IMG/VR virus record: IMGVR_UViG_3300047462_000110
Coordinates: 1 to 60,898 of that record
Source of the DNA: a virus
Strand: one strand, 5' to 3'
Length of the DNA stretch: 60,898 nt
Below are positions 32,139-56,123 of the stretch, one piece after another. The position numbers were made by a program, and so were the translations under genes. Position 1 is the first letter of the stretch. Each line of letters opens with the position of its first letter. The notes beneath the pieces were generated by a model that did not search any database, had not been told where the DNA came from, and worked only from the letters and a program-made list of their open reading frames with translations.

Positions 32139-32326
32139 CCTACCAGCCTGAAACCACGATCAGCCAGCGTATTAAGCGGAAACTGTGCTACTGGCACGGC
32201 CACGACTGGCTGGTTGACGATGGTTGCCGCCGCACCTGCCGGCGGTGCGGAGCCTATCAAATGCTCATGATGCGCCCGTTTCCGAGCACCACGGAGCCTA
32301 GTTTGCAGTGGAGAGACATGGCATGA
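32135..32326 (+). CDS. DUF1660-like small zinc-binding phage protein
   Basis: 63 residues. After the N-terminal MTYQPETTISQR comes LCYWHGHDWLVDDGCRRTCR with RCGAYQ, the Cys/His pattern of DUF1660-type prophage proteins (a small one-zinc fold). Precedes the NAD+ genes and is coupled to the PRPP-synthetase-like gene by ATGA. Confidence 0.55.
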   Translation: MTYQPETTISQRIKRKLCYWHGHDWLVDDGCRRTCRRCGAYQMLMMRPFPSTTEPSLQWRDMA

Positions 32327-33168
32327 GCGATCAGCCACAAACCACCCTGACTGTAACGGCCCAGAGCACAACGGGTATCCGCGCCGTGGTGCCATTGAAG
32401 GTAATTCAGTTCTCGGCGGGCGAGGTGCAGCCGCGCATAGAGCAAACGCCAATCTCGGACATAGAGAAATTGGAGTTTCGGTTGCACTTCCGCTCAATGG
32501 GCGATTTGTTTACGCTTGGGCTGGCGGTGGACGCCTTTCGTCGCCATCCTCTTACGCGCAACGCGGTGTTTTCAGCGATCATTCCATATTTTCCTGGCGC
32601 TCGACAGGATCGGGTGTGCTATCCCGGCGAGCCTCTGACCGCTCGGGTGCTGGCTGATTTTGTCAACGCAATGCGATTTGACGCGGTCACAGTATGGGAC
32701 GCGCATAGCGACGTTCTGGGGGCGGTGCTGGACAGATGCATTCACGTCCCAGCTAGCCATTGGGCCAAGTCTCTCCCAAAGCACGCCGTTGTCGTGGCGC
32801 CTGATAAGGGGGCCAAAGGGCGCGCCGCTGCCTTCTCGTGGGCGCACCACGCTAAAATTACCGCGCAAGCAGACAAGGTTCGCGACTCAAGCAGCGGCGA
32901 GATCAAAGGCATCGCGCTGGAAACTGACCTCTCTGGTTTCGGCGATGCCGATTTTCTGATGGTGGATGACATATCGGATGGCGGTCGTACCTTTATCGAA
33001 TTGGCGAAAGTTTTGCGGCCGATGACTGCTGGCAAGATTGACCTATTTGTGACGCACCTTATCGGCGCTGGCGGTTTTGATAAGTTCCGCGGCGTCATAG
33101 ACACCATCTATACGCCGAACTGCTTTGTCACCGATGCGCCAGCCGACCTTGTTTACACCCTTTCGTAA
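32323..33168 (+). CDS. ADP-ribose pyrophosphate synthetase-like (Prs-family) enzyme, candidate NARP1 Adps
   Basis: 281 residues from ATG 32323 (ATGA with the upstream gene). Ribose-phosphate pyrophosphokinase features: PYFPGARQDRV at residues 88-98 (nucleotide loop), PGEPLTARVLADF at 101-113, VVAPDKGAKGRAAAF at 157-171 and the PRPP loop DDISDGGRT at 215-223. Canonical Prs makes PRPP from ribose-5-phosphate and ATP. In phage NARP1 the homologue Adps pyrophosphorylates ADP-ribose instead. The adjacency to a NAMPT-like gene and the absence of a visible NMN adenylyltransferase favour Adps, but substrate choice cannot be read from the sequence. Confidence 0.8.
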   Translation: MSDQPQTTLTVTAQSTTGIRAVVPLKVIQFSAGEVQPRIEQTPISDIEKLEFRLHFRSMGDLFTLGLAVDAFRRHPLTRNAVFSAIIPYFPGARQDRVCYPGEPLTARVLADFVNAMRFDAVTVWDAHSDVLGAVLDRCIHVPASHWAKSLPKHAVVVAPDKGAKGRAAAFSWAHHAKITAQADKVRDSSSGEIKGIALETDLSGFGDADFLMVDDISDGGRTFIELAKVLRPMTAGKIDLFVTHLIGAGGFDKFRGVIDTIYTPNCFVTDAPADLVYTLS

Positions 33169-33178
33169 GAAAAAACCG

Positions 33179-34681
33179 ATGAAACTGTTTGCCCCCCACC
33201 TGACCGATTTTTATAAGACTGGCCACAAGGCTCAATATCCGGACGGCACGACCATGGTGTACTCGAATTTCACGTGTCGAGGCATGAAGAACGCCAGCGT
33301 GGCGCCTGGCTGGGACGGCCGGACTGTGTTTTTTGGCCTGCAAGGCATCTGTCAATGGCTTTTTGAAGACCTGTGGAGAGAATCGTTTTTCGACCAGCCG
33401 CGTGGCAAATGCGTGGACAGATACCGGGCGCGCATGGACGGCGCGCTTGGAACTGGCGCGGTTTCGCCCGATCACATCGGTGCCCTGCATGATCTTGGCT
33501 ACCTGCCGATCTTGATTAAAGCGTTGCCCGAAGGCAGTCGCGTTCCGCTGCGTGTTCCAAGCTTGACGATCAGGAACACGCGGCCCGAGTTTTTTTGGGT
33601 GACAAATTACCTAGAAACGCAACTATCGGCCGAGCTATGGAAGCCGATCACGTCGGCCACCACGGCTTACGAATTTCGCCGGGCGTTCGACAAGTATGCG
33701 GCACGCACCGGCAGCCCGGCGGACTTCGTGCCATGGCAGGGACATGACTTCTCGATGCGCGGCATGTCGGGTGTCCATGATGCGTCGCAAAACGGCGCCG
33801 GCCACCTTTTGTCGTTCACCGGCACGGACACGATTTCGGCTATTGACTATGCCGAGGAATACTACCCAGACGCACAGCCGGGTTTCATTGGCGGGTCGGT
33901 TCCCGCAACCGAGCATTCGGTCATGTGCATGGGCGGCGAGGACGACGAGATTGGCACTTTCGTTCGTCTGATGGACCGCTATCCGTCTGGCGTGCTTTCC
34001 GTGGTGTCTGACACATGGGACTTTTGGCAGGTAATCACCGGCTACACCGTGCGGCTCAGGGACCGCATCATGGCGCGCGACGGCAAGTTGGTGTTCCGGC
34101 CCGACAGCGGCGACCCGGTGCTCATCATTTGTGGTGACCCCGACGCGCCCGCCTACACGCCCGAACATAAGGGGGCCGTTGAATGCCTCTGGGATGTATT
34201 CGGTGGCACAACCACCGGCGCAGGGTATAGGCTCTTAGACAGCCATGTCGGGTTGATCTACGGCGATTCAATCAACATCGCTCGCCAGGGCGAGATTTTA
34301 GGCCGTTTGGCAGCAAAAGGTTTCGCATCCGGCAATGTGGTGCTGGGCATAGGCTCCTACACCTATCAATTCGTAACCAGGGACACCTTTGGTACGGCAA
34401 TCAAGGCGACTGAGAGCACTGTCGGCGGGGTGGATCGGGCGCTTAGCAAAAAACCCAAGACCGACGACGGCCTGAAAAACTCGGCGCGGGGACTGCTTCG
34501 CGTGGAGGCAGATGCCGAACGCGGGTTCTTGCTTCATCAAGATCAGACATGGGAGCAAGAAGCCGTAGGCATGCTCAAAATCGCATTCTGCGACGGTAAA
34601 ACCGTGCGCAAGGATGGCTTTTCAGCAATCCGGGCGCGACTATTTGGGGCATCAAACGCGGCACGGGACTTGGCGGCATGA
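33179..34681 (+). CDS. Nicotinamide phosphoribosyltransferase-like enzyme (NAMPT/Namat)
   Basis: 500 residues from ATG 33179; an upstream in-frame start lies inside the preceding gene. NAMPT-family features: FYKTGHKAQYPDGTT near residue 11, VYSNFTCRG at 27-35, GTDT at 215-218 (substrate Asp217), VPATEHS at 241-247 (catalytic-type His246) and RPDSGDP at 307-313. It joins nicotinamide to PRPP (giving NMN) or, in the NARP1 version, to ADP-ribose pyrophosphate (giving NAD+ directly). Encoded 10 bp after its presumed partner. All recognisable active-site residues are present. Confidence 0.88.
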   Translation: MKLFAPHLTDFYKTGHKAQYPDGTTMVYSNFTCRGMKNASVAPGWDGRTVFFGLQGICQWLFEDLWRESFFDQPRGKCVDRYRARMDGALGTGAVSPDHIGALHDLGYLPILIKALPEGSRVPLRVPSLTIRNTRPEFFWVTNYLETQLSAELWKPITSATTAYEFRRAFDKYAARTGSPADFVPWQGHDFSMRGMSGVHDASQNGAGHLLSFTGTDTISAIDYAEEYYPDAQPGFIGGSVPATEHSVMCMGGEDDEIGTFVRLMDRYPSGVLSVVSDTWDFWQVITGYTVRLRDRIMARDGKLVFRPDSGDPVLIICGDPDAPAYTPEHKGAVECLWDVFGGTTTGAGYRLLDSHVGLIYGDSINIARQGEILGRLAAKGFASGNVVLGIGSYTYQFVTRDTFGTAIKATESTVGGVDRALSKKPKTDDGLKNSARGLLRVEADAERGFLLHQDQTWEQEAVGMLKIAFCDGKTVRKDGFSAIRARLFGASNAARDLAA

Positions 34682-41486: not shown

Positions 41487-41954
41487 ATGGGCCTCGCAGC
41501 CGATACGCAGGCCAATCTTGCCGAAATATGCAACTGGCACAGCCCGAAACTGGTGGCCGCCATCAACGCCTACCGGGCGGCGCGCGCCACGCTGGCGGGC
41601 GACGATGTGATTACCGCCATGCAGGCCACCGCGCGCCTCGCCATTGCCGCCGAAGCCATCAAGGATGCCGCCGCCGAAGCCGAGGCCGGCTACCGCAAGG
41701 CCCTGGCCGTGGCGATGATCGACACGGGTTGCCCCGCAGTCCGCACGGAACACCATACCGTGTCGATCACCGAGCCGAAGCCGAAACTCAAGGTTATGGA
41801 TAGCAAGCTACTCCATCCAGATTATTGGAAAACAAAACTCATCCCGGATGAGGAGAAAATTAAGGAAGCACACGCACGCGGCTTCATGCCGGCCGGCGTG
41901 GCGCTCACGAACGGCAGCGCCCCTTTCATCACGATACGCGCAAAGAAGGATTGA
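41487..41954 (+). CDS. Gp157-like protein
   Basis: 155 residues from ATG 41487. A helical N-terminal domain (residues 1-80, Ala-rich) is followed by a hairpin HTVSITEPKPKLKVMDSKLL and DYWKTKLIPDEEKIKEAHAR, ending with strands GFMPAGVALTNGSAPFITIR. This matches siphovirus Gp157-type proteins encoded next to Bet/RecT annealases. Its function there is unclear, possibly a recombination accessory. Confidence 0.6.
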   Translation: MGLAADTQANLAEICNWHSPKLVAAINAYRAARATLAGDDVITAMQATARLAIAAEAIKDAAAEAEAGYRKALAVAMIDTGCPAVRTEHHTVSITEPKPKLKVMDSKLLHPDYWKTKLIPDEEKIKEAHARGFMPAGVALTNGSAPFITIRAKKD

Positions 41955-41958
41955 CGCC

Positions 41959-42897
41959 ATGAACGCAGTTGTCGAACTCAAGCCACGCACCGATGCCGAC
42001 ATGATCGCGGTGCTTGGCAGCAGCCTCTACCCCGGCGCGAAGCCGGAAAGCGTTGCCCTGGTGCTGGGCTACTGCAAAGCCAGCGGATACGACCCGATGA
42101 AAAAGCCGGTGCATATCGTGCCCATGTCCGTGCAGGTCGCACCCGGCAAATGGGAAATGCGCGACACGATCATGCCAGGCATCGCACAGTATCGCATGGA
42201 TGCGGCGCGCACGGGCGAGTATGGCGGCAAGTCCGAACCCGAGTATGGCCCGAACGTCACCAAAAAGCTGGGCAGCGCACAGATCACCTTTCCAGAGTGG
42301 TGCAAGATCACCGTCATTCGCAATGTGAACGGCCGGGACCGCGCCTTCACCGCGAAAGAATACTGGATGGAGAATTACGCCACGGCCGGCCGCGGCAAGC
42401 AGGAGCCGAACGCGATGTGGTCAAAGCGCCCATACGGCCAGCTCGCCAAATGCACCGAAAGCCAGGCCCTGCGCATGGCTTTTCCCGAGCAGACTGGCGG
42501 CACCAACACGGGCGAGGAAATGGAGGGCAAGACGTTTGCCGATGCCGGCCCCTACATCGAGGTTGATGCGAAGCCGGCCGCAGCGCAGGCCGCGACGAAG
42601 GTTGCGCCGCCCGCCATCGAACACGATATCCCGAACGTCGATGAATCGATCCAGCAGAAGCCGCGCGACTTGTCCGATGCTGACAAGGAATATCTGGCCA
42701 AGGTGGAAAGCAAGCTGCGCATGTGCGCCACGGTTGACCAGGTGCATGATATCGCCAGCCGGCAATCGGTAAGGGCGTCTCTGGAAAACCCGGCGGACAT
42801 CATCAAGGCGCCGCTCGAAGCCATGATCAAGCGCGCGCTCGATCACGTCACGGCGCTGGCGGAAAACCCCATCCCTGACGACGAAATCCCGTTTTAG
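41959..42897 (+). CDS. bet: Single-strand annealing protein (Bet/RecT-like)
   Basis: 312 residues. GYCKASGYDPMKKPVHIVPM near residue 35, RDTIMPGIAQYRMDAARTGE near 75, ARGKQEPNAMW-like and WSKRPYGQLAKCTESQALRM near 155 are the conserved Bet-family blocks. It anneals complementary single strands in phage recombination. The C-terminal 100 residues are variable and acidic at the end (IPDDEIPF), possibly an SSB-type contact. No exonuclease partner was recognised near it. Confidence 0.85.
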   Translation: MNAVVELKPRTDADMIAVLGSSLYPGAKPESVALVLGYCKASGYDPMKKPVHIVPMSVQVAPGKWEMRDTIMPGIAQYRMDAARTGEYGGKSEPEYGPNVTKKLGSAQITFPEWCKITVIRNVNGRDRAFTAKEYWMENYATAGRGKQEPNAMWSKRPYGQLAKCTESQALRMAFPEQTGGTNTGEEMEGKTFADAGPYIEVDAKPAAAQAATKVAPPAIEHDIPNVDESIQQKPRDLSDADKEYLAKVESKLRMCATVDQVHDIASRQSVRASLENPADIIKAPLEAMIKRALDHVTALAENPIPDDEIPF

Positions 42898-42914: not shown

Positions 42915-43766
42915 ATGACCGAAAAAACCTGGATTACCGATGAAAGCGGCAACCGCTGTAGCGTGGAGTACTGGGGCAGCGAGGAAGCCGCTTGGGCAGC
43001 ACTAGCAAGTTTGAAAAACTGCCGGGGCTGCTCGGACTGCTCGGACTGCTCGGACTGCCGGGGCTGCTCGGACTGCTCGGACTGCCGGGGCTGCTCGGAC
43101 TGCTCGGGCTGCTCGCTCTGCCGGGGCTGCCGGGGCTGCTCGCTCTGCCGGGGCTGCTCGGGCTGCCGGGGCTGCTCGGACTGCTCGGACTGCTCGGACT
43201 GCCGGGGCTGCTCGGACTGCTCGGACTGCTCGCTCTGCCGGGGCTGCCGGGGCTGCTCGGGCTGCTCGCTCTGCCGGGGCTGCCGGGGCTGCTCGCTCTG
43301 CCGGGGCTGCTCGGACTGCTTGGGCTGCTCGCTCTGCCGGGACTGCCGGGACTGCTGGCTCTGCCGGGACTGCTCGGGCTGCTCGGACTGCTCGCTCTGC
43401 CGGGGCTGCCGGGGCTGCTCGGGCTGCTCGGACAAAATCGGGCACGCCGCTGCTGGCGGCGCTCTTCCGCCCCCCAAAATCGAGAACATTCATTCCAAGA
43501 TTTACGCGGCCGTTTCGCGGGAAGGCGCGCTCAATATGGGTGATTGGCACACGTGCGAAACCACGCACTGCCGCGCCGGGTGGGCTGTGCATTTGTGCGG
43601 CGACGCCGGTTATGCATTGGAAAGACTTCACGGCTCATTGCTCGCCGCGCAACTGATCTATCGCGAGAGCGGCGCCCCGATCAATCCGGCGCGGTTTTTC
43701 GACAGCAACGAAGTCGCCATGGCCGACATGAAGCGGCTCGCCGAAGAAGAAGCGGCGAAGGCGTAA
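42915..43766 (+). CDS. Cysteine tripeptide-repeat protein, copy A
   Basis: 283 residues after AAGGAAAA. Residues 1-35 (MTEKTWITDESGNRCSVEYW onwards) form a short conserved head. Residues 36-173 are 46 uninterrupted Cys-X-X tripeptides, where X-X is RG, SD, SG, SL, RD, LG or WL. Residues 174-283 are a C-terminal domain with WHTCETTHCRAGWAV, HLCGDAGYALERL and PARFFDSNEVAMADM. A single chain with about 50 evenly spaced cysteines could bind metals or form a disulfide helix. Not a recognised enzyme. The repeat is also open in other frames, but only this frame has a head, a tail and a ribosome site. Confidence 0.75.
   Translation: MTEKTWITDESGNRCSVEYWGSEEAAWAALASLKNCRGCSDCSDCSDCRGCSDCSDCRGCSDCSGCSLCRGCRGCSLCRGCSGCRGCSDCSDCSDCRGCSDCSDCSLCRGCRGCSGCSLCRGCRGCSLCRGCSDCLGCSLCRDCRDCWLCRDCSGCSDCSLCRGCRGCSGCSDKIGHAAAGGALPPPKIENIHSKIYAAVSREGALNMGDWHTCETTHCRAGWAVHLCGDAGYALERLHGSLLAAQLIYRESGAPINPARFFDSNEVAMADMKRLAEEEAAKA
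43020..43433. repeat. 9-bp tandem repeat array A (46 units)
   Basis: 46 nine-base units of the type TGC-NNN-NNN encode the Cys-X-X run. Cysteine is always TGC; the middle codon is TCG, CGG, TTG or TGG and the last GGC, GAC or CTC. No insertions break the period. Confidence 0.95.
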
Positions 43767-43796
43767 CCCCGCCACAACAAACAAGGAGAACCCACT

Positions 43797-44711
43797 GTGA
43801 CCGAAAAAACCTGGATTACCGATGAAAGCGGCAACCGCTGTAGCGTGGAGTACTGGGGCAGCGAGGAAGCCGCTCGGGCAGCACTAGCAAGTTTGAAAAA
43901 CTGCCGGGGCTGCTCGGACTGCTCGGACTGCTCGGACTGCTCGGACTGCCGGGACTGCTCGCTCTGCCGGGACTGCTTGGGCTGCTCGCTCTGCCGGGAC
44001 TGCTCGGGCTGCTGGCTCTGCCGGGACTGCTCGGGCTGCTCGGACTGCTTGGGCTGCTCGGACTGCCGGGGCTGCTCGGGCTGCCGGGGCTGCTCGGGCT
44101 GCTCGGACTGCTCGGACTGCTTGGGCTGCTCGGACTGCCGGGGCTGCTCGGACTGCTCGGGCTGCTCGGACTGCCGGGGCTGCTCGGACTGCTCGGGCTG
44201 CTCGGACTGCTTGGGCTGCTCGCTCTGCCGGGGCTGCTCGGGCTGCTCGGACTGCTTGGGCTGCTCGGACTGCCGGGGCTGCTTGGGCTGCTCGGACTGC
44301 TCGGGCTGCTCGGACTGCTCGCTCTGCCGGGACTGCTCGGGCTGCTCGCTCTGCCGGGACTGCTCGGGCTGCTCGGACAAAATCGGGCACGCCGCTGCTG
44401 GCGGCGCTCTTCCGCCCCCCAAAATCGAGAACATTCATTCCAAGATTTACGCGGCCGTTTCGCGGGAAGGCGCGCTCAATATGGGTGATTGGCACACGTG
44501 CGAAACCACGCACTGCCGCGCCGGGTGGGCTGTGCATTTGTGCGGCGACGCCGGTTATGCATTGGAAAGACTTCACGGCTCATTGCTCGCCGCGCAACTG
44601 ATCTATCGCGAGAGCGGCGCCCCGATCAATCCGGCGCGGTTTTTTGACGGCACCGAAGCAGCCTTGGCCGACATGAAGCGGCTCGCCGAAGAAGAAGCGG
44701 CGAAGGCGTAA
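43797..44711 (+). CDS. Cysteine tripeptide-repeat protein, copy B
   Basis: 304 residues, GTG start after AAGGAG. Nearly identical to copy A at both ends (head differs Trp to Arg; DSNEVAMADM becomes DGTEAALADM), but it has 53 Cys-X-X units instead of 46, exactly accounting for the 21 extra residues. The duplication includes the 30-bp 3' leader, so it arose as a tandem copy. The order of the repeats differs from copy A, while the three-residue period and the Cys are fully kept. Confidence 0.75.
   Translation: MTEKTWITDESGNRCSVEYWGSEEAARAALASLKNCRGCSDCSDCSDCSDCRDCSLCRDCLGCSLCRDCSGCWLCRDCSGCSDCLGCSDCRGCSGCRGCSGCSDCSDCLGCSDCRGCSDCSGCSDCRGCSDCSGCSDCLGCSLCRGCSGCSDCLGCSDCRGCLGCSDCSGCSDCSLCRDCSGCSLCRDCSGCSDKIGHAAAGGALPPPKIENIHSKIYAAVSREGALNMGDWHTCETTHCRAGWAVHLCGDAGYALERLHGSLLAAQLIYRESGAPINPARFFDGTEAALADMKRLAEEEAAKA
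43902..44378. repeat. 9-bp tandem repeat array B (53 units)
   Basis: Second array of TGC-NNN-NNN units, seven longer than array A and with a different order of unit types. The DNA flanking both arrays on the 3' side is identical for more than 200 bp. Confidence 0.95.
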
Positions 44712-44740: not shown

Positions 44741-45241
44741 ATGCGTAAGCTGTTTCTGACCACCGCCCTGTGCCTTCTCGCCACCCAAGCCGCCGCCAAG
44801 GCGGGTTCCACATGGACCCTGACCTACAAGGCCGGCATCGAGAACAAGGCCACGGGCGCCGTTGAACTGTATGAGCCGAGCTATGGCGTCTATTCTGAAA
44901 ATGGTTTCACCAGCAGCGCCGCCTGCTATGCGGCCGTCACGGATGCCAACGGCGTGCTGGCCACCGCCACCACGCAACTCACCGCGCTGGGCGCCATCTA
45001 TGGCATTTACGTGGGCGCGAGTTTTCCGGTGATCGTGTCCGCGGTATGCACGCAGGGTGCCGCCGCGAAAACGGCGCCGTCCACCCTCACGCTGCTATCG
45101 AATCAGTTGGGCTTCACCATCCCCGGCGTCGATCCAACCGCCTGCCCCACATACATAACGAATGTGCAATCGACGTTCTACCCCTTCACGGGCGCGGCGG
45201 CGGAAAACAATTACGTCGGCATCGCCTGCGCGAAACCGTAG
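44741..45241 (+). CDS. Small exported protein
   Basis: 166 residues after AAGGAG in the same leader as copy B. The signal peptide (MRKLFLTTALCLLATQAAA) is clear, with cleavage after AAA-K. The mature part is beta-rich with four cysteines (ACYAAV, SAVCTQG, TACPTY, IACAKP) that could form two disulfides. Follows the cysteine-repeat genes directly. No family recognised. Confidence 0.6.
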   Translation: MRKLFLTTALCLLATQAAAKAGSTWTLTYKAGIENKATGAVELYEPSYGVYSENGFTSSAACYAAVTDANGVLATATTQLTALGAIYGIYVGASFPVIVSAVCTQGAAAKTAPSTLTLLSNQLGFTIPGVDPTACPTYITNVQSTFYPFTGAAAENNYVGIACAKP

Positions 45242-45357
45242 CGGGCTACCCGATCCCCGCTGGGGGGTAACACGGCCCGCGTTAGATCGCGGTGACGGAA
45301 GCCAGGTCGGACCTCGGACGCAGGGGTGACAGGAGGGAGAGACCCCAAACAGATTCG
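45242..45357. other. Structured leader before the decapeptide-repeat gene
   Basis: 116 bp. The stretch GATCCCCGCTGGGGGGT (45251-45267) can form a CCCC/GGGG hairpin just after the exported-protein stop and may be a terminator or leader structure. AGGAGGGAG at 45331-45339 lies about 19 bases before ATG 45358, a long spacing, so an upstream GTG (45292) is an alternative start. Confidence 0.4.
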
Positions 45358-45909
45358 ATGGAGCTATCCGTGACCGATCACCCCAAGGAATTACTCGCGT
45401 TGCTGGCGCAGAACAGTGGACCCGCCCTGCGGAGTGCCGGCTACACTGCCCGCGACCTGCGGAACGCCGGCTACATCGCCAGCGACGTGCTGAGTGCCGG
45501 CTACACCGCCAGCGACGTGCGGAGTGCCGGCTACGAAATGCCGCCCGACGACGAAATTCCCCTCGTGCATATGCCCTATACGCGCATGCTGGCCGACATT
45601 AAGTCCAGCCTGCGAAAACACGATCAATCGACGTTCGGCCCCGATTACGACCCCGCAACCAATCTTTGCGGCACGGCCATGTGTACAGCCGGCCATATCG
45701 TGCAAATGGCCGGACCAGCCGGTTACGCACTCAAGAATCGTTTCGGCTTTGACGTCGCCGCATTTTTGTTGTTTGAGCGCGCGCACCCTGGCTGGCCGCA
45801 GCAGAATTACGGCATAATCCCGCAGGAGTGGGCGATGGCGCACATCGAGGTCATGGCCGAGCGTGAGGCCGCCGAAGCGCAGGAAACAACCGCGCCAGTG
45901 AAGGAGTAG
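45358..45909 (+). CDS. Decapeptide-repeat protein with the same C-terminal domain
   Basis: 183 residues from ATG 45358 (GTG 45370 or 45292 also possible). The N-terminal part has four 10-residue repeats (LRSAGYTARD, LRNAGYIASD, VLSAGYTASD, VRSAGY). The C-terminal half has LCGTAMCTAGHIVQMAGPAG and YALKNRFGFDVAAFLLFERA, which align with the end domain of the two cysteine-repeat proteins (Cys-x4-Cys-x-Ala-Gly, then Gly-Tyr-Ala-Leu). So one domain is carried behind two different short-repeat modules. Confidence 0.65.
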   Translation: MELSVTDHPKELLALLAQNSGPALRSAGYTARDLRNAGYIASDVLSAGYTASDVRSAGYEMPPDDEIPLVHMPYTRMLADIKSSLRKHDQSTFGPDYDPATNLCGTAMCTAGHIVQMAGPAGYALKNRFGFDVAAFLLFERAHPGWPQQNYGIIPQEWAMAHIEVMAEREAAEAQETTAPVKE

Positions 45910-50856: not shown

Positions 50857-51777
50857 CTATTTCGAAAAAATCGTTACACTGACGGTGCTTGCCGTCGTGA
50901 TCGTGGTGGTGTCGCTGTCCGCAAAGCTGCCGGCTGTCACGTCGTAGGCAATGCCGGTGCCCATGACGATGCCGACATCCGTGGAATAAATCGCCGTCCC
51001 GCCGGCGGCGACGGGGATGGTGGCGACGATGCCGGTGGCGCTGCCGACGGTGGGCGCGGCCGCCAGGTTATAGAGGCGGAAATACACCGTGCCGCTGCCG
51101 CCGTTGCTCACGATCCAGGAATAGACCTGGCCGGCGCTGGTCTTGATGCTGGTGGCCATGGCGCTGCTGGCGGCGTTGATGGCCCTGGTCTGCGAGAAGC
51201 CGGAGCTGGCGCTGGCCACGATGGTGGCTGCCTGGGTGCCGCCATTCGGGTGGATATAAAGCTGCCCGGTCGCGTCGCATTGCACGGCGCCCTGGTAGCC
51301 GCTGGTGAAGGCCGGCTGGCTGGAATTATAGGCGCAGCCTAGCATGATCATCTTGGTGGCCGTGGCGGCCGCCGGCGCCACGGGCGCCACCATTGCGTCC
51401 AGGTTGATTTCGCTGACCGGCTGCGTGGCTTGGAAAAACGCGCCGCTCACCGGCACCGGATTGCTACCACTCACCCCCACCAGGTTGCCGCCGACATTGA
51501 TGCCGAGATAATCCGCGCTGGTCGGCACGCTGCTGCCCGTGGCGCTGGCCGCGGCGTTCCCGCCGCCGCCACCACCGGAACAACCCGTGATGCAGTTCAC
51601 TTCTGGATACCCAGAGCTGTCGATGGGCCAAGGGTTCCAGCCGCCGGACGGCGCCTGCACTTCCGGCCGCATATGGCTGGCCGGCGCGGTGTTGCCCGTC
51701 GATGGGGGCGCGGCAAACGCCACCGCGTTGCCCAGCCAAAGCGCCGCAACAAGCGCCGCGCGAACCGTATTTTTCAA
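50857..51777 (-). CDS. Secreted protein downstream of the tailspike (TTG start)
   Basis: 306 residues from TTG 51777, which overlaps the tailspike TGA (TTGA) and has GGAGG five bases upstream. This start gives a textbook signal peptide (NTVRAALVAALWLGNAVAFA, cleaved before APP). The mature protein is beta-rich with Thr/Ser/Ala repeats and a CITGCSGGGGGG stretch, ending in sheet-like sequence, like an appendage or capping protein. A longer frame reaching 52110 is a shadow of the tailspike gene. Confidence 0.6.
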   Translation of the reverse strand: MKNTVRAALVAALWLGNAVAFAAPPSTGNTAPASHMRPEVQAPSGGWNPWPIDSSGYPEVNCITGCSGGGGGGNAAASATGSSVPTSADYLGINVGGNLVGVSGSNPVPVSGAFFQATQPVSEINLDAMVAPVAPAAATATKMIMLGCAYNSSQPAFTSGYQGAVQCDATGQLYIHPNGGTQAATIVASASSGFSQTRAINAASSAMATSIKTSAGQVYSWIVSNGGSGTVYFRLYNLAAAPTVGSATGIVATIPVAAGGTAIYSTDVGIVMGTGIAYDVTAGSFADSDTTTITTASTVSVTIFSK

Positions 51778-54700
51778 CCCTGCCTCCACTGATTTGTGCT
51801 TTCCAAGGTAAATCGTGCAGTTGCGCCGCTCGCCAACGAAACGGCCGCGTTTGTCGATCCACTCTCGATGGCTGCACCGGATGGCGGATACACCAGCAGC
51901 GCATTGGCGCCGCGGTTGAACACCACAATTTCCGACCCGATGCCGAGGCCGATGGGAAAAACCGGGGCGCCCGTTTGCGCGGGCAGCACGGTACCGGTGC
52001 CAGATGCTACCGTCGCAAAGGTGTTCACCTGCCCGGTGATCACGTAGGCGGTTGCTTGGTTTGTGCCTGTAGCCGTCAGGGCGGCCGCCACCACCCGATT
52101 GGTGGACCAACCGAACGTAATGCTGCCGGTATCGGTCGGGTCTTCCAGCGGCGTGGCCGGCGTGTTCACGCTGCCCACAAACCCGGAAACGCCAATCAGA
52201 ATATTGCCGCTGCTGGCATTGCGCATAATGCCATAGGGCGCCGACGTGCTTACGTCAGAAAATACCCGGTAATTCGACACGTAGATTTCATAGGCATTCG
52301 CGCTGCTGAAATTCTCGAACTTGATGCCCGAGGCAGGGCCGGGATTATCCCGGTAATAACTCTCGCAATCTACGATCTCAACCCGGCCACCGAAGCCGTT
52401 GAACTCCATCGGCGCGCCATTGAAACGGGAAACAACACAGCCATGTAGCCGCACATAGGCAGCGGAATCAAACAAAAACCCGCGCTGGTAATAAGGTGTG
52501 TTCGCCAAGAGACCATCGCCACGCGCCCAGCAATTCCGGTATTCCTGACGGTTGTTCGGCCCTGTGTTCGGCGTGGAAACCAGAAAGCCGTTTTCCTGAA
52601 ACTCCATGGCCGAGCAGCCAAGATAGAGCGTGGTCGAAAGATATGCAGGCTGCCCGCTGGGCGGCGATGGCGTTCCCAGATTGGAATACCCATCAACATA
52701 GCCATTCACGCACCCAACTGCCTCGCACCCGGAATATTGCGTGTTGTAGCCCCGGTTCTGAAACCCTATGCTCGCCGACACATTGCGGTTGGCGTGGTTG
52801 GTATAGTCCACCCGGCAATTCTCAAACCGGCCCTCGTAGCAGCCCCAGTGCGTGTCGAACCCCGCATTGTAGCCGTCCCGCACCGAACTGCCATACACCA
52901 GGAACGAGCGCGGATTGCCGCGCACCTGCAACGGCATAAAGCTGTAGCCGCCCCAATACACGTTGGTGGTGAAAGCATGTCGCACACCCTTCGCAATCAC
53001 CTTCACCCGCGCGCCGGTATCCGGGCCACCCAGCTCGACGCCATAGCCATACGCGCCTTCGCTCAGGTTCGCGTCGTTCGGCAGGTAGCTCACGCGCAAA
53101 TCGTAATCGCCCTGCCAACACCCAAGGCTTTGCAGAAACCGCGTCCACCCCGTCTTGCACGTCACGTTCTTTACGGACGGCTCAATGCAGTTGCCCAGAA
53201 TGATGCAGGGCAGGCGGTTGGCAGTGCCGATTGGCGTCTCGACATTCGATCCTGCCGGCACGTCGAACGTCAGCCCGTCAATGATCGTCTTGCACGCAGT
53301 CAGCAGATTGATTTGCGGAGACGTGGCGTAAGTATCCACGATCTTTTCGGCAATCGCCACCACAGCCGCGCCGCTGCACACGCCATAGGTGCTGCCGCCC
53401 ACTTGAAGGTTTTCGCCGCTGGTAAACGCCGCCGACACGCTGGAAAGCACGATGTATCCCGCCGTCCCGCCGCTCGATCCAACCGACACGGAGCGAATTA
53501 CGCCCGTGGCGCGGCTGCTGGCGCCAGTCACCGTCTGGTCTTCCGCAAAGGCCCCGCTGCCGCTGCTGAACGGAATGCATATGCCCTGCACCCGCACGAG
53601 CTGGCCCTGCCACACCTGCAACACGCCAGAGCCGCCGTTGATCACGCTGGCCAGCGCCCAGGGGTAATTATCCTGGCTGTTCAGGCTGTAGATTTGCCCC
53701 GCTGAAATGCTGGGCAGCGTGCCGCCGGCAATGCCCTGCAACACCCAGGTTTGCACCGCCTCATCCACGAAAGCGTTGCCGCTCACCGTGCCGAGAAGGA
53801 TAGATGTCACGCCGCTGAGGGAAATGTTTGCGCCAGGCGTGCGAGTCACGGTCAGCGGCGTGCCGGCCTGCTGCCATATCAGCGTGCCTTCGCCCACCAT
53901 CCACAAATCGGCGGTGTCGCTGATGGTCCAATTCACCAGATACCGCCCCGCCGGCACGTAGATGGGGCAAGCATATTGGTTCGCCAGCGTCCTGGCCGTG
54001 GTGAACGCGCTGGTGCTGTCCGTGCTGTCGCTGCTGATCGCGCCGCACCACAGCACATTGATCGAAAACCGCTCGTCGATCGCGCGCAGCCATCGCCCAG
54101 CGCCGCTGATGCTATAAGGCGCCACGGTCATAATGCCGTCATGCGTGGCCGTGCTCGCGGCATTCCACTTGAACGTGCCGCCACCAATGGGCGTTACGTT
54201 CGATCCGTAATTGCCAACGAACGCGGCGTTGCCGTCCGTCAGGTACGTGTAAGGCACAGCACGAAGCTGCGCGATGGTGCTAACCGCAACCAAGCCGGTT
54301 GAGCCGCCAAACGATTCTTGCCGCCACTGGTTTGCGCTTTCCAGCGTGAATATGGCGGTGGTGCCGGGTGTGACGGATACGGAGCCGTTCACCGACACCT
54401 GCTCAATGGCGCCGCCCGACTGCGGATACACCAGCAGCGCGTTGGCCCCGCGGTTGAAAATCACAATCTCGGTGCCCGGCGCCAGCGCCGCCGGCAGAAT
54501 GGCGCCCGTGCCAGACGCCACCGTGCTGAACGTGCTGACCTGCGTGGTGATTGCGTAAGCCGTACCCTGGTTCGTGCCCGTCGCGGTCAGCCCACCCACA
54601 ACCGTGCGGGCGAAATAATCGAACATATTGAGGCGGTTGTTGAAGCCGATGGGCGCGCCGTTCTGCGTGCCAATCGTCGGATATGTCTGCACACCGGTGC

Positions 54701-56123
54701 CGGCCGGCGTCAGCACCAGGTTATCCGTGGCCCCCTGGATCGACCGCAAATACAGCAGCAGCGTGCTATCCGGCCCATACCAGGCGAAAGACCGTTTGCT
54801 CGCAATGCCGGATGGCGCCGCTGACGAAGCCCGACCGCGTGTATAAATCTGGTTGCCGGCCGTGATGCCGCTACCGTCGATGATCGCGGTGGCATCGCTC
54901 AGGCTGGTGGAGTTCAACTCCCTTGCCATCAGCCCCGCGGTGCCGTTCGAGCCGATGATGTTTATGGCGGTCGCCATATTGGCAAACCGGCAATCGCTGA
55001 TGATGCAACCCGACGAATTGACCGCCGCTTGAAACTGGATGGCGATGTCGGCACCACCCGAGCCGCCGTTGAAATTGCAGCCGGAAATCGTGAAGTTCGA
55101 CGTGTCGGTAAAATCGAACATGACGGCAACCGAATTGCCGCCATAATTGCGCGTGATGTCGCACCCCGTCACCGAACCCAGGGTCAGGAACGCGCACTGC
55201 ACCGTGCCCGCGCCCGTGTTCAACTCGCTATCGTCTATCCACAGGCCCAGCAGCGAAGTCTTGCCGGACGTGTAGCCCGTCCATCCGCTTTGCGTGGTTT
55301 GCACCAATACGCGGCCCAGGCCCACCACCACGGCATTGACGATATACAGCCCCTCGCAATACCCGGTCTGGATCACCAGCGAGAGGCCGTAATAAGCCTG
55401 GATGCGCCCGATTTGCGTGTCGATGGCGCCGTTGATCTCGATGCAGCACGCGCCCGAGGCGCCATAATCGTTTGGCGGCCCGAACCACGACAGGTCATGC
55501 AATTGCGCTGACCATGTGCCGTTCAGGATCACCCCGCGCAAGAAAGTCTGCGGGTAAGGCGTCTGCCCGTTCTGCGTGTTCGGATAGCCGAAAAACTCGA
55601 CGCCCTGAATTTCCGTGGTCACATAGCCAAAGCTGGTGCTGGTCGGATAGGTGATGCGGATTGCGCCGGCCGTCTGCCCCAGGCTGCTTTCCGCGTAGAT
55701 CGACAAATCCCGGAACAGCGTTTTGTAGGTCAGATTTCCGGGCGCACAATCGAACACGATATTCTGGTGCTGCGCATGAATGCGCGTCACGCCGCGGCCC
55801 GCCCCCACCACCGCAATGGCAATGCCCTCGATCAAAATGGTGGAGCTGAGAATGTAATCGCCGGGGGGGATAAGGATCGCCCCGCCAGGCGTGGTCAGGC
55901 TTGCGATGGCAGCATTGAACGCGGCAGTGCTGTCGTTTACGCCGGTCGGATCAGCGCCAAAGCTGACCACGGATATGCCCAGCCCACCATCCCCGCCGCC
56001 GCCGCCGCCGCCCTCGAACAGCGTGGTGAAATTGGCATTGGTTTTGGTAAAGCCGGTGTAAACCGTGTCGGCCGTGGGGTCGTTGGGGTAGCCGCCGACA
56101 TTGATAACTTGCTGAACGTTCAC
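51774..56123 (-). CDS. Tailspike / tail-fibre protein with two pectate-lyase-like domains
   Basis: 1,449 residues. Residues about 48-110 (ISVVSFGADPTGVNDSTAAF, then NAAIASLTTPGGAILIPPGD) are the start of a pectate-lyase-3 beta-helix. A second helix begins near residue 690 (GAISSDSTDSTSAFTTARTL, then YVPAGRYLVNWTI). A beta module with VASGTGAILPAALAPGTEIV and IFNRGANALLVYPQSGGAI occurs near residue 530 and again at the C-terminus. It is likely the host-receptor-binding spike that may degrade surface polysaccharide. The N-terminal 40 residues (VINVGGYPNDPTADTVYTGF) look like the virion anchor. Confidence 0.8.
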   Translation of the reverse strand: MNVQQVINVGGYPNDPTADTVYTGFTKTNANFTTLFEGGGGGGGDGGLGISVVSFGADPTGVNDSTAAFNAAIASLTTPGGAILIPPGDYILSSTILIEGIAIAVVGAGRGVTRIHAQHQNIVFDCAPGNLTYKTLFRDLSIYAESSLGQTAGAIRITYPTSTSFGYVTTEIQGVEFFGYPNTQNGQTPYPQTFLRGVILNGTWSAQLHDLSWFGPPNDYGASGACCIEINGAIDTQIGRIQAYYGLSLVIQTGYCEGLYIVNAVVVGLGRVLVQTTQSGWTGYTSGKTSLLGLWIDDSELNTGAGTVQCAFLTLGSVTGCDITRNYGGNSVAVMFDFTDTSNFTISGCNFNGGSGGADIAIQFQAAVNSSGCIISDCRFANMATAINIIGSNGTAGLMARELNSTSLSDATAIIDGSGITAGNQIYTRGRASSAAPSGIASKRSFAWYGPDSTLLLYLRSIQGATDNLVLTPAGTGVQTYPTIGTQNGAPIGFNNRLNMFDYFARTVVGGLTATGTNQGTAYAITTQVSTFSTVASGTGAILPAALAPGTEIVIFNRGANALLVYPQSGGAIEQVSVNGSVSVTPGTTAIFTLESANQWRQESFGGSTGLVAVSTIAQLRAVPYTYLTDGNAAFVGNYGSNVTPIGGGTFKWNAASTATHDGIMTVAPYSISGAGRWLRAIDERFSINVLWCGAISSDSTDSTSAFTTARTLANQYACPIYVPAGRYLVNWTISDTADLWMVGEGTLIWQQAGTPLTVTRTPGANISLSGVTSILLGTVSGNAFVDEAVQTWVLQGIAGGTLPSISAGQIYSLNSQDNYPWALASVINGGSGVLQVWQGQLVRVQGICIPFSSGSGAFAEDQTVTGASSRATGVIRSVSVGSSGGTAGYIVLSSVSAAFTSGENLQVGGSTYGVCSGAAVVAIAEKIVDTYATSPQINLLTACKTIIDGLTFDVPAGSNVETPIGTANRLPCIILGNCIEPSVKNVTCKTGWTRFLQSLGCWQGDYDLRVSYLPNDANLSEGAYGYGVELGGPDTGARVKVIAKGVRHAFTTNVYWGGYSFMPLQVRGNPRSFLVYGSSVRDGYNAGFDTHWGCYEGRFENCRVDYTNHANRNVSASIGFQNRGYNTQYSGCEAVGCVNGYVDGYSNLGTPSPPSGQPAYLSTTLYLGCSAMEFQENGFLVSTPNTGPNNRQEYRNCWARGDGLLANTPYYQRGFLFDSAAYVRLHGCVVSRFNGAPMEFNGFGGRVEIVDCESYYRDNPGPASGIKFENFSSANAYEIYVSNYRVFSDVSTSAPYGIMRNASSGNILIGVSGFVGSVNTPATPLEDPTDTGSITFGWSTNRVVAAALTATGTNQATAYVITGQVNTFATVASGTGTVLPAQTGAPVFPIGLGIGSEIVVFNRGANALLVYPPSGAAIESGSTNAAVSLASGATARFTLESTNQWRQG

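Follow-up and report, generated by a model that had tools for sequence, protein, structure and literature searches.

Phage proteins with uninterrupted Cys-X-X arrays form an apparently undescribed viral family and share an end domain with pentapeptide-repeat proteins

Introduction

What kind of protein repeats Cys at every third residue without interruption, and what might a phage use it for? The question is raised by two adjacent genes of the IMG/VR virus record IMGVR_UViG_3300047462_000110, whose 60,898 bases constitute the window, i.e., the whole stretch of DNA that was analysed. An earlier note on this DNA had pointed out that the twin genes encode 46 and 53 uninterrupted Cys-X-X (CXX) tripeptides, and reading of the open reading frames (ORFs) confirmed both the coordinates and the unit counts. 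The phage is a tailed one with a portal-like protein, an integrase, a RecT/Bet annealing protein and an MT-A70 methyltransferase, and the genes considered here are arranged as follows.

41848..42897, + strand: RecT/Bet single-strand annealing protein (PF03837, TIGR01913, phrog_2449)
42915..43766, + strand: CXX gene 1, an ORF of 283 amino acids with an ATG start; matches phrog_15341 and phrog_31265
42915..43019, + strand: gene 1 head, a beta-hairpin plus helix and putative N-cap (AlphaFold2 pLDDT 85-97; related heads in other phages)
43020..43433, + strand: gene 1 array of 46 Cys-X-X units without interruption
43434..43766, + strand: gene 1 linker, AGW end domain (WHTCETTHCRAGW...) and stop codon (all-helical by AlphaFold2, mostly pLDDT 88-96)
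43476-43763, + strand: gene 1 end-domain core
43797..44711, + strand: CXX gene 2, 304 amino acids with a GTG start, tandem paralogue of gene 1
43797..43901, + strand: gene 2 head, DNA 98.1% identical to that of head 1
43902..44378, + strand: gene 2 array of 53 Cys-X-X units without interruption
44379..44711, + strand: gene 2 linker, AGW end domain and stop codon, DNA 98.2% identical to that of tail 1
44421-44708, + strand: gene 2 end-domain core
45292..45909, + strand: third, divergent relative, whose related end domain is joined to decapeptide repeats (AGYTASDLRN)

The Twin CXX Genes and Their Surroundings

Each twin protein consists of a 35-residue head, a CXX array and a 110-residue end, and the near-identity of the two heads and of the two tails bears out the anatomy and the conservation of the twins described in the earlier note. 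The limitation of the X-X pairs to RG, SD, SG, SL, RD, LG and WL was likewise found in both arrays. One third of the array residues are Cys, giving 46 thiols in gene 1 and 53 in gene 2. Aligned with each other, the twin arrays score 9.0, hardly better than shuffled arrays (5.7 +/- 2.6).

AAGGA-like ribosome sites precede both CXX genes; the first begins 17 bases downstream of the RecT/Bet gene, the second 30 bases downstream of the first. The longest CXX run in 2000 residue shuffles of protein 1 was 7, against the 46 observed. Openness of the CXX frame alone is no proof of coding, because the other reading frames across both twin arrays are likewise open. A six-frame test of 87 arrays gave the lowest entropy to the CXX frame (3.04 bits, with 3.44-4.34 bits in the others) and zero stops. 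The ribosome sites, the shuffle test and the six-frame result uphold the earlier claim of a real coding frame, and the six-frame entropy, together with codon backgrounds that differ between phages, rules out a frame artefact. Frame disruption in homologues, named in the earlier note as something that would refute its reading, was found in two relatives, while the frame is intact in more than 100. The CXX proteins are almost certainly a real, translated and modular family.

In one of the two broken relatives, Flavobacterium phage FL-1 (KY421186; L004 5473-6304), the CXX array is not annotated as a gene and the frame is broken within the end domain by a mutation or a sequencing error. The other (L008 5727-6282) has a 9-unit CXX array out of frame with its end domain and is either a broken copy or again the result of a sequencing error.

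Elsewhere in the window, a small protein with an apparent signal peptide and no family match in Pfam, NCBIfam or PHROG is encoded between the CXX genes and the decapeptide gene (44741-45241). A ribose-phosphate pyrophosphokinase-like gene (PF13793) lies beside a nicotinamide phosphoribosyltransferase gene (PF04095, PF18127) at 32308-34681, and we read the two as a phage NAD-synthesis pair; such pairs can counter NAD-depleting defences. Nicotinamide phosphoribosyltransferase (phrog_12872) is also found near the CXX genes of other phages. On the - strand, positions 51774-56123 encode a 1449-residue protein with a pectate-lyase-like domain (PF12708) that is probably a tail spike.

The AGW End-Domain Family

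The search of viral and bacterial sequences with the end domain, which had been proposed as a check, was run with the AGW domain. It yielded 62 viral loci at first and then about 390 matching IMG/VR contigs, in addition to 34 bacterial-assembly loci from Alphaproteobacteria, Bacteroidota, Xanthomonas and others, many of them probably prophage, one isolated phage (FL-1) and one Bordetella plasmid record. Among the 213 AGW ORFs that were read, 112 carry CXX arrays, 88 carry pentapeptide repeats, nine are truncated and four are of other kinds, counts that are not prevalences because the retrieval was non-random and near-duplicates are included. Two of the pentapeptide versions, those of L141 and L093, are confirmed by PF00805 (E 4.5e-57 and 2.4e-20), and single AGW loci have, as judged by eye, LRR-like and Ala-rich repeats (L076 and L100).

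Pentapeptide-repeat proteins (PF00805; MfpA, Qnr, AlbG) thus take the place of the CXX array on the AGW end domain. They have four repeats per coil and helix caps (PMC8145042). Like the CXX arrays, the pentapeptide repeats show S/R and then G/D at variable positions and the same non-synonymous excess among units, but their unit has five rather than three residues, lacks Cys and has a known quadrilateral fold; PF00805 (at least eight A(D/N)LXX units) gave no Pfam match with the CXX proteins of the window. The product of 45292..45909 extends the exchange to decapeptide repeats (PF25296, also found in DotG/IcmE), whose unit of 10 also lacks Cys. Its PF25296 match (E=3.4e-10) lies under the Pfam curated cut-off, while its end domain is 39% identical to that of the twins and matches phrog_31265 (E=9.1e-9).

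The twins match phrog_15341 (E=9.2e-20 and 1.1e-24) and phrog_31265 (E=1.7e-25 and 2.2e-24), which between them span the head plus array and the end domain, and weakly phrog_36982 and phrog_29268. All four PHROGs are of unknown function. The earlier statement that no characterised protein with such an array was known stands in that none was found, but it was incomplete, since many phages have such arrays. Against PDB sequences, the end domain gave only weak matches to phytochromes (E 0.2-0.4), judged to be due to chance.

Near-perfect repeats with variable pairs are also found in the DUF7666/YdcK beta-solenoid phage proteins (PF24703, PF18836), which differ from the CXX proteins in both the repeat and the flanking domains; both Pfam families occur among the neighbours of CXX genes. 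Directly 3' of the AGW-tail gene in two related contigs (L380 3034-4023 and L385 3034-3861) is a gene with GAASATGxx repeats, presumably of the DUF7666/YdcK solenoid type, whose repeat number differs between the two contigs and whose variable pairs are TS, DS, YR and YS.

CXX Arrays with Other C-Termini

DNA-pattern scans found CXX arrays with at least three unrelated C-termini besides AGW: an IGSR...CGCFKG domain (e.g., L335 and L338), a short LKYAI..LTKEEY end (L182 and L199) and a short INDRKLEPDL end (L265, L327 and L329). The heads that go with them (WWVDENNNKW...EQA...SL.NC) resemble the window head by eye, and phrog_15341 matches both. Isolated phages of Vibrio, Campylobacter and Flavobacterium carry CXX arrays; in Vibrio phage 1.238 and Campylobacter phages CPt10 and CP220, Cys recurs at every third residue and the X residues are very mixed. 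Some phage members are automatically annotated as 'insect antifreeze protein'.

In one virus group, CXX genes are scattered over each contig in about 9-11 copies, whose ends are conserved and whose arrays are very different (L327, L329, L317 and L323, i.e., 3300037172_000071, 3300031261_000032, 3300037172_000055 and 3300030506_000011, respectively). Their heads read MxITKRxxRWYDENNNSW, their ends LDINDRKLEPDL, and their arrays comprise 9-42 units with mixed X; TGT accounts for 558 of the 567 Cys codons in this group.

A RiPP precursor matured by a radical SAM enzyme would have its maturase gene nearby. In Campylobacter phage CPt10 (L351 3001-5256), a radical SAM gene follows the CXX gene at a distance of about 0.8 kb; no radical SAM family is among the best-represented neighbour families of the AGW-tail loci. 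CP220 and CPt10 are reported to encode 11-12 radical SAM proteins (PMC2853527), and thiol modification in these two phages merits attention given those genes.

Several perfect GCSGCS or CCSCCS runs (L142-L261) have no variable residue and were judged to be other frames of unrelated repetitive genes; they are a trap for automatic CXX searches.

Constraint on the Array and Diversification at X

In the unit, Cys at position 1 is fixed, position 2 is mostly Ser and position 3 is variable (X), with an alphabet of D, G, R, Y, S, N and H encoded mostly by N[A/G]Y codons. Few of these codons have C or T as second base, of which the NNY of a diversity-generating retroelement would give more. Cys and Ser codons are near-uniform inside one array and differ between phages, where Cys is TGC or TGT and Ser is TCG, TCC, TCT, TCA or AGC. 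The mean heterozygosity per base of the 9-bp unit in 51 arrays is 0/0/.003 for Cys,.083/.103/.025 for Ser and.448/.497/.016 for X. Nearly all within-array variation therefore falls on bases 1 and 2 of the X codon, and synonymous sites are almost frozen, a state that partly follows from recent unit duplication. Unit pairs that differ by one base within an array comprise 170 non-synonymous and 7 synonymous changes, against an opportunity of 4484:1266 (3.5:1); the Fisher p of 4e-11 is nominal, since the pairs are non-independent and the 51 pooled arrays include near-identical relatives. The corresponding figures for the pentapeptide arrays of the AGW family are 407:13, with an opportunity of 14054:5480. 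The same pattern can be seen between two loci (L037 and L045) that are identical in the compared stretches of head and tail and differ in two array units, in both cases non-synonymously.

The array is under protein-level constraint, and Cys is retained across codon backgrounds and in non-repetitive DNA alike. A DNA-level motif, such as a Chi-like or packaging repeat, is ruled out by DNA units that differ between phages, and selection to break DNA repeats for stability is a poor fit because silent changes would achieve it and yet are nearly absent. Similar letters at X recur in about seven codon backgrounds, which points to recurrent protein-level selection at this position. A mutational bias confined to the X codon is the alternative to selection; recurrent selection is our preferred reading.

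Predicted Fold of the Array

AlphaFold2 was run with the whole protein and 39 sequences (run 1) and with the head plus 20 units and an ungapped alignment of 43 (run 2). The head, with its hairpin and helix, and the all-helical end domain were predicted confidently. Structure prediction of the array, also suggested in the earlier note, yielded its first coil only: pLDDT falls below 50 for residues 55-180 in run 1 and is likewise below 50 past the first coil in run 2. In both runs, bridges at residues 34/37/40 recur at 46/49, with a third in the first model. In the first coil, the offset of 12 residues corresponds to four tripeptides per coil. Foldseek returned nothing at E<=0.001 for either model against the PDB or for the first model against viral models. 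The only solved beta-solenoid among the sequence matches to the array is the beetle antifreeze protein 1EZG, with E values of 3.5e-4 for protein 2 and 0.053 for the profile; the match is driven by Cys-rich composition, and for protein 2 a collagen-like chain outscores it.

The Tenebrio molitor antifreeze protein (1EZG; PF02420, IPR016133) is, like the CXX arrays, rich in Cys, and its inward residue at every third position has the spacing of Cys in them. Its geometry runs out-in-out-out-in..., with positions 2, 5, 8 and 11 of 12 facing inward (PMC8038014). The 12-residue coil of the beetle protein recurs in the AlphaFold2 models at the first coil of the CXX array, but the beetle protein has Cys at only two of four inward positions, whereas the array would have it at every one. 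The TxT ice-binding ranks and TCTxSxxCxxAx coils of the beetle protein are absent from the arrays, which read C-[S/R]-X almost throughout, and the phage proteins add a head and an end domain. PF02420 in current Pfam matched neither the window proteins nor, with E values of up to 10 allowed, three phage relatives, and sequence comparisons gave no evidence of common descent with beetle antifreeze proteins or of ice binding. The likeness is likely one of convergence.

By analogy with this geometry, the array may be a minimal, narrow and four-sided beta-solenoid in which each coil takes up about four tripeptides (12 residues), every inward residue is Cys and the head caps the N-terminal side. We consider that the array probably folds as a beta-solenoid. 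The least secure part of this structure is the coil number, because the order of X residues along the units has no convincing period at any lag, including that of four units, to support it; the array lengths are not multiples of 4.

Possible Functions and Alternative Explanations

The neighbours of CXX genes include repressors, DnaB, ERF or RecT, HNH nucleases, DNA methyltransferases and ParB-like proteins, in a survey that predicted genes by a greedy ORF rule and records occurrence, not enrichment over background. The CXX proteins show no evident signal peptide. Because of these neighbours and the lack of an evident signal peptide, an early, cytoplasmic and accessory role is most likely. PADLOC anti-phage defence profiles did not match the window proteins.

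Metal sponge, redox or disulfide fibre, nucleic-acid binder and decoy, the roles put forward in the earlier note, stand as open guesses, and the exchange with Cys-free repeats argues against thiol chemistry as the shared one. C-X-X-C is a common metal-binding spacing and occurs in the CXX array, where a third of the residues are Cys; 46 or 53 thiols might bind Zn, Cu or other soft metals as in metallothionein, with X hardly mattering. If only Cys mattered, however, neither the non-synonymous excess nor the restricted alphabet at X would be expected, Cys-free pentapeptide repeats occur on this end domain and Cys-free decapeptide repeats on one related to it, and no metal-related gene is among the best-represented neighbour families. 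The window proteins also matched no metallothionein-like or other Cys-rich metal-binding family in Pfam or NCBIfam, and a metal sponge or buffer appears unlikely. The thiols might instead form disulfide ladders within or between chains and so make a redox switch or a structural fibre. Mst(3)CGP proteins of the Drosophila sperm tail, compared here by description, are eukaryotic, structural sperm proteins, and we know of no head or end domain in them like those of the phage proteins. Their repetitive Cys-Gly-Pro is itself a CXX repeat, and they are required for normal sperm axonemes (PMC10645079); beetle antifreeze proteins offer a second parallel in the cross-core disulfides between positions 2 and 8 of each coil (PMC8038014). 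Against such a fibre, the early-region position and the lack of an evident signal peptide suggest a reducing cytoplasm, virion structural genes are not prominent near CXX genes, and Cys-free versions carry the same end domain. We consider it decidedly unlikely.

The finding that one end domain carries either CXX arrays or pentapeptide repeats raises a further explanation, in which the rod, like MfpA and Qnr, would copy the shape and charge of DNA and block gyrase, restriction or other DNA-binding host proteins. Shape and charge underlie the action of the pentapeptide gyrase inhibitors (PMC8145042), and 67% of 88 arrays are net negative; yet array values of net charge per tripeptide extend from -0.59 to +0.29, with that of window gene 1 about 0, where uniform acidity would be expected. 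Uniform DNA mimicry is unsupported by this spread, and a DNA-mimic rod is quite unlikely. Still less probable is a disordered linker of S/G/D spacers, Y/R stickers and Cys that forms condensates or binds nucleic acids. The low AlphaFold2 confidence and the D, G, R, Y, S and N of the X alphabet are in keeping with it, but the array exchanges with pentapeptide solenoids, its three-residue spacing is fixed and the hairpin-plus-helix heads are kept right before the first unit, even with other C-termini. Least probable of all is a selfish or neutral coding microsatellite without a function of its own, whose 9-bp repeats would have expanded by slippage because the linker that joins two useful domains tolerates them. 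It would account for the tandem repeats at the DNA level, the fast turnover between the twins and the other open frames, but the same residues arise from different codon sets, the Vibrio and Campylobacter arrays keep Cys at every third residue despite mixed X, and lowest entropy and zero stops are confined to the CXX frame, with a non-synonymous excess at one position. This explanation is already largely contradicted.

Because Cys-free repeats take the place of the array on the AGW end domain, the metal sponge and the redox fibre are less favoured, and the shared function would be that of a rod and its surface rather than of thiol chemistry. The diversification of the X position suggests binding of a changing partner. 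We propose that the protein may be made early, in the cytoplasm, where the rod would bind a host or defence component as its putative partner and the end domain would serve as the constant attachment or effector part. The X residues that face outward may line up in a row, kept new by duplication and loss of units and by substitutions under selection, and can be likened to the residues that vary in other repeat-recognition proteins.

The best overall explanation, to which we give an even chance, is a solenoid with a Cys core and a diversifying outer row that acts as an early host- or defence-binding rod and is exchangeable with pentapeptide rods. A diversifying binding rod in phage-host conflict is itself a possibility that we rate somewhat short of even. 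More tentatively still, a minimal solenoid with four Cys per turn could be a repeat-variable recognition rod that tracks a fast-evolving host or defence target, with pentapeptide and other short-repeat solenoids as interchangeable versions; its units would multiply, disappear and diversify anew at a single outward residue, in up to eleven copies per contig.

Implications

A search of the open literature, including few subscription journals, for CXX arrays, phage 'insect antifreeze' and YdcK/DUF7666 found no paper on the CXX family. The CXX proteins are a widespread and apparently undescribed viral family. New within the known beta-solenoids would be a continuous tripeptide array with a Cys core and a repeat-variable residue that is exchangeable with pentapeptide rods. 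If the proposed structure is true, few known repeat folds would be as simple as the continuous all-Cys-core tripeptide array, which would also give protein design a new scaffold. The swapping of unrelated repeats on one end domain, together with change at one residue that is presumably exposed, may point to an arms-race function in the early regions of phages, one that existing annotation overlooks, as in FL-1, whose annotation has no gene at the array. The family is common and present in isolated phages, and is thus accessible to experiment.
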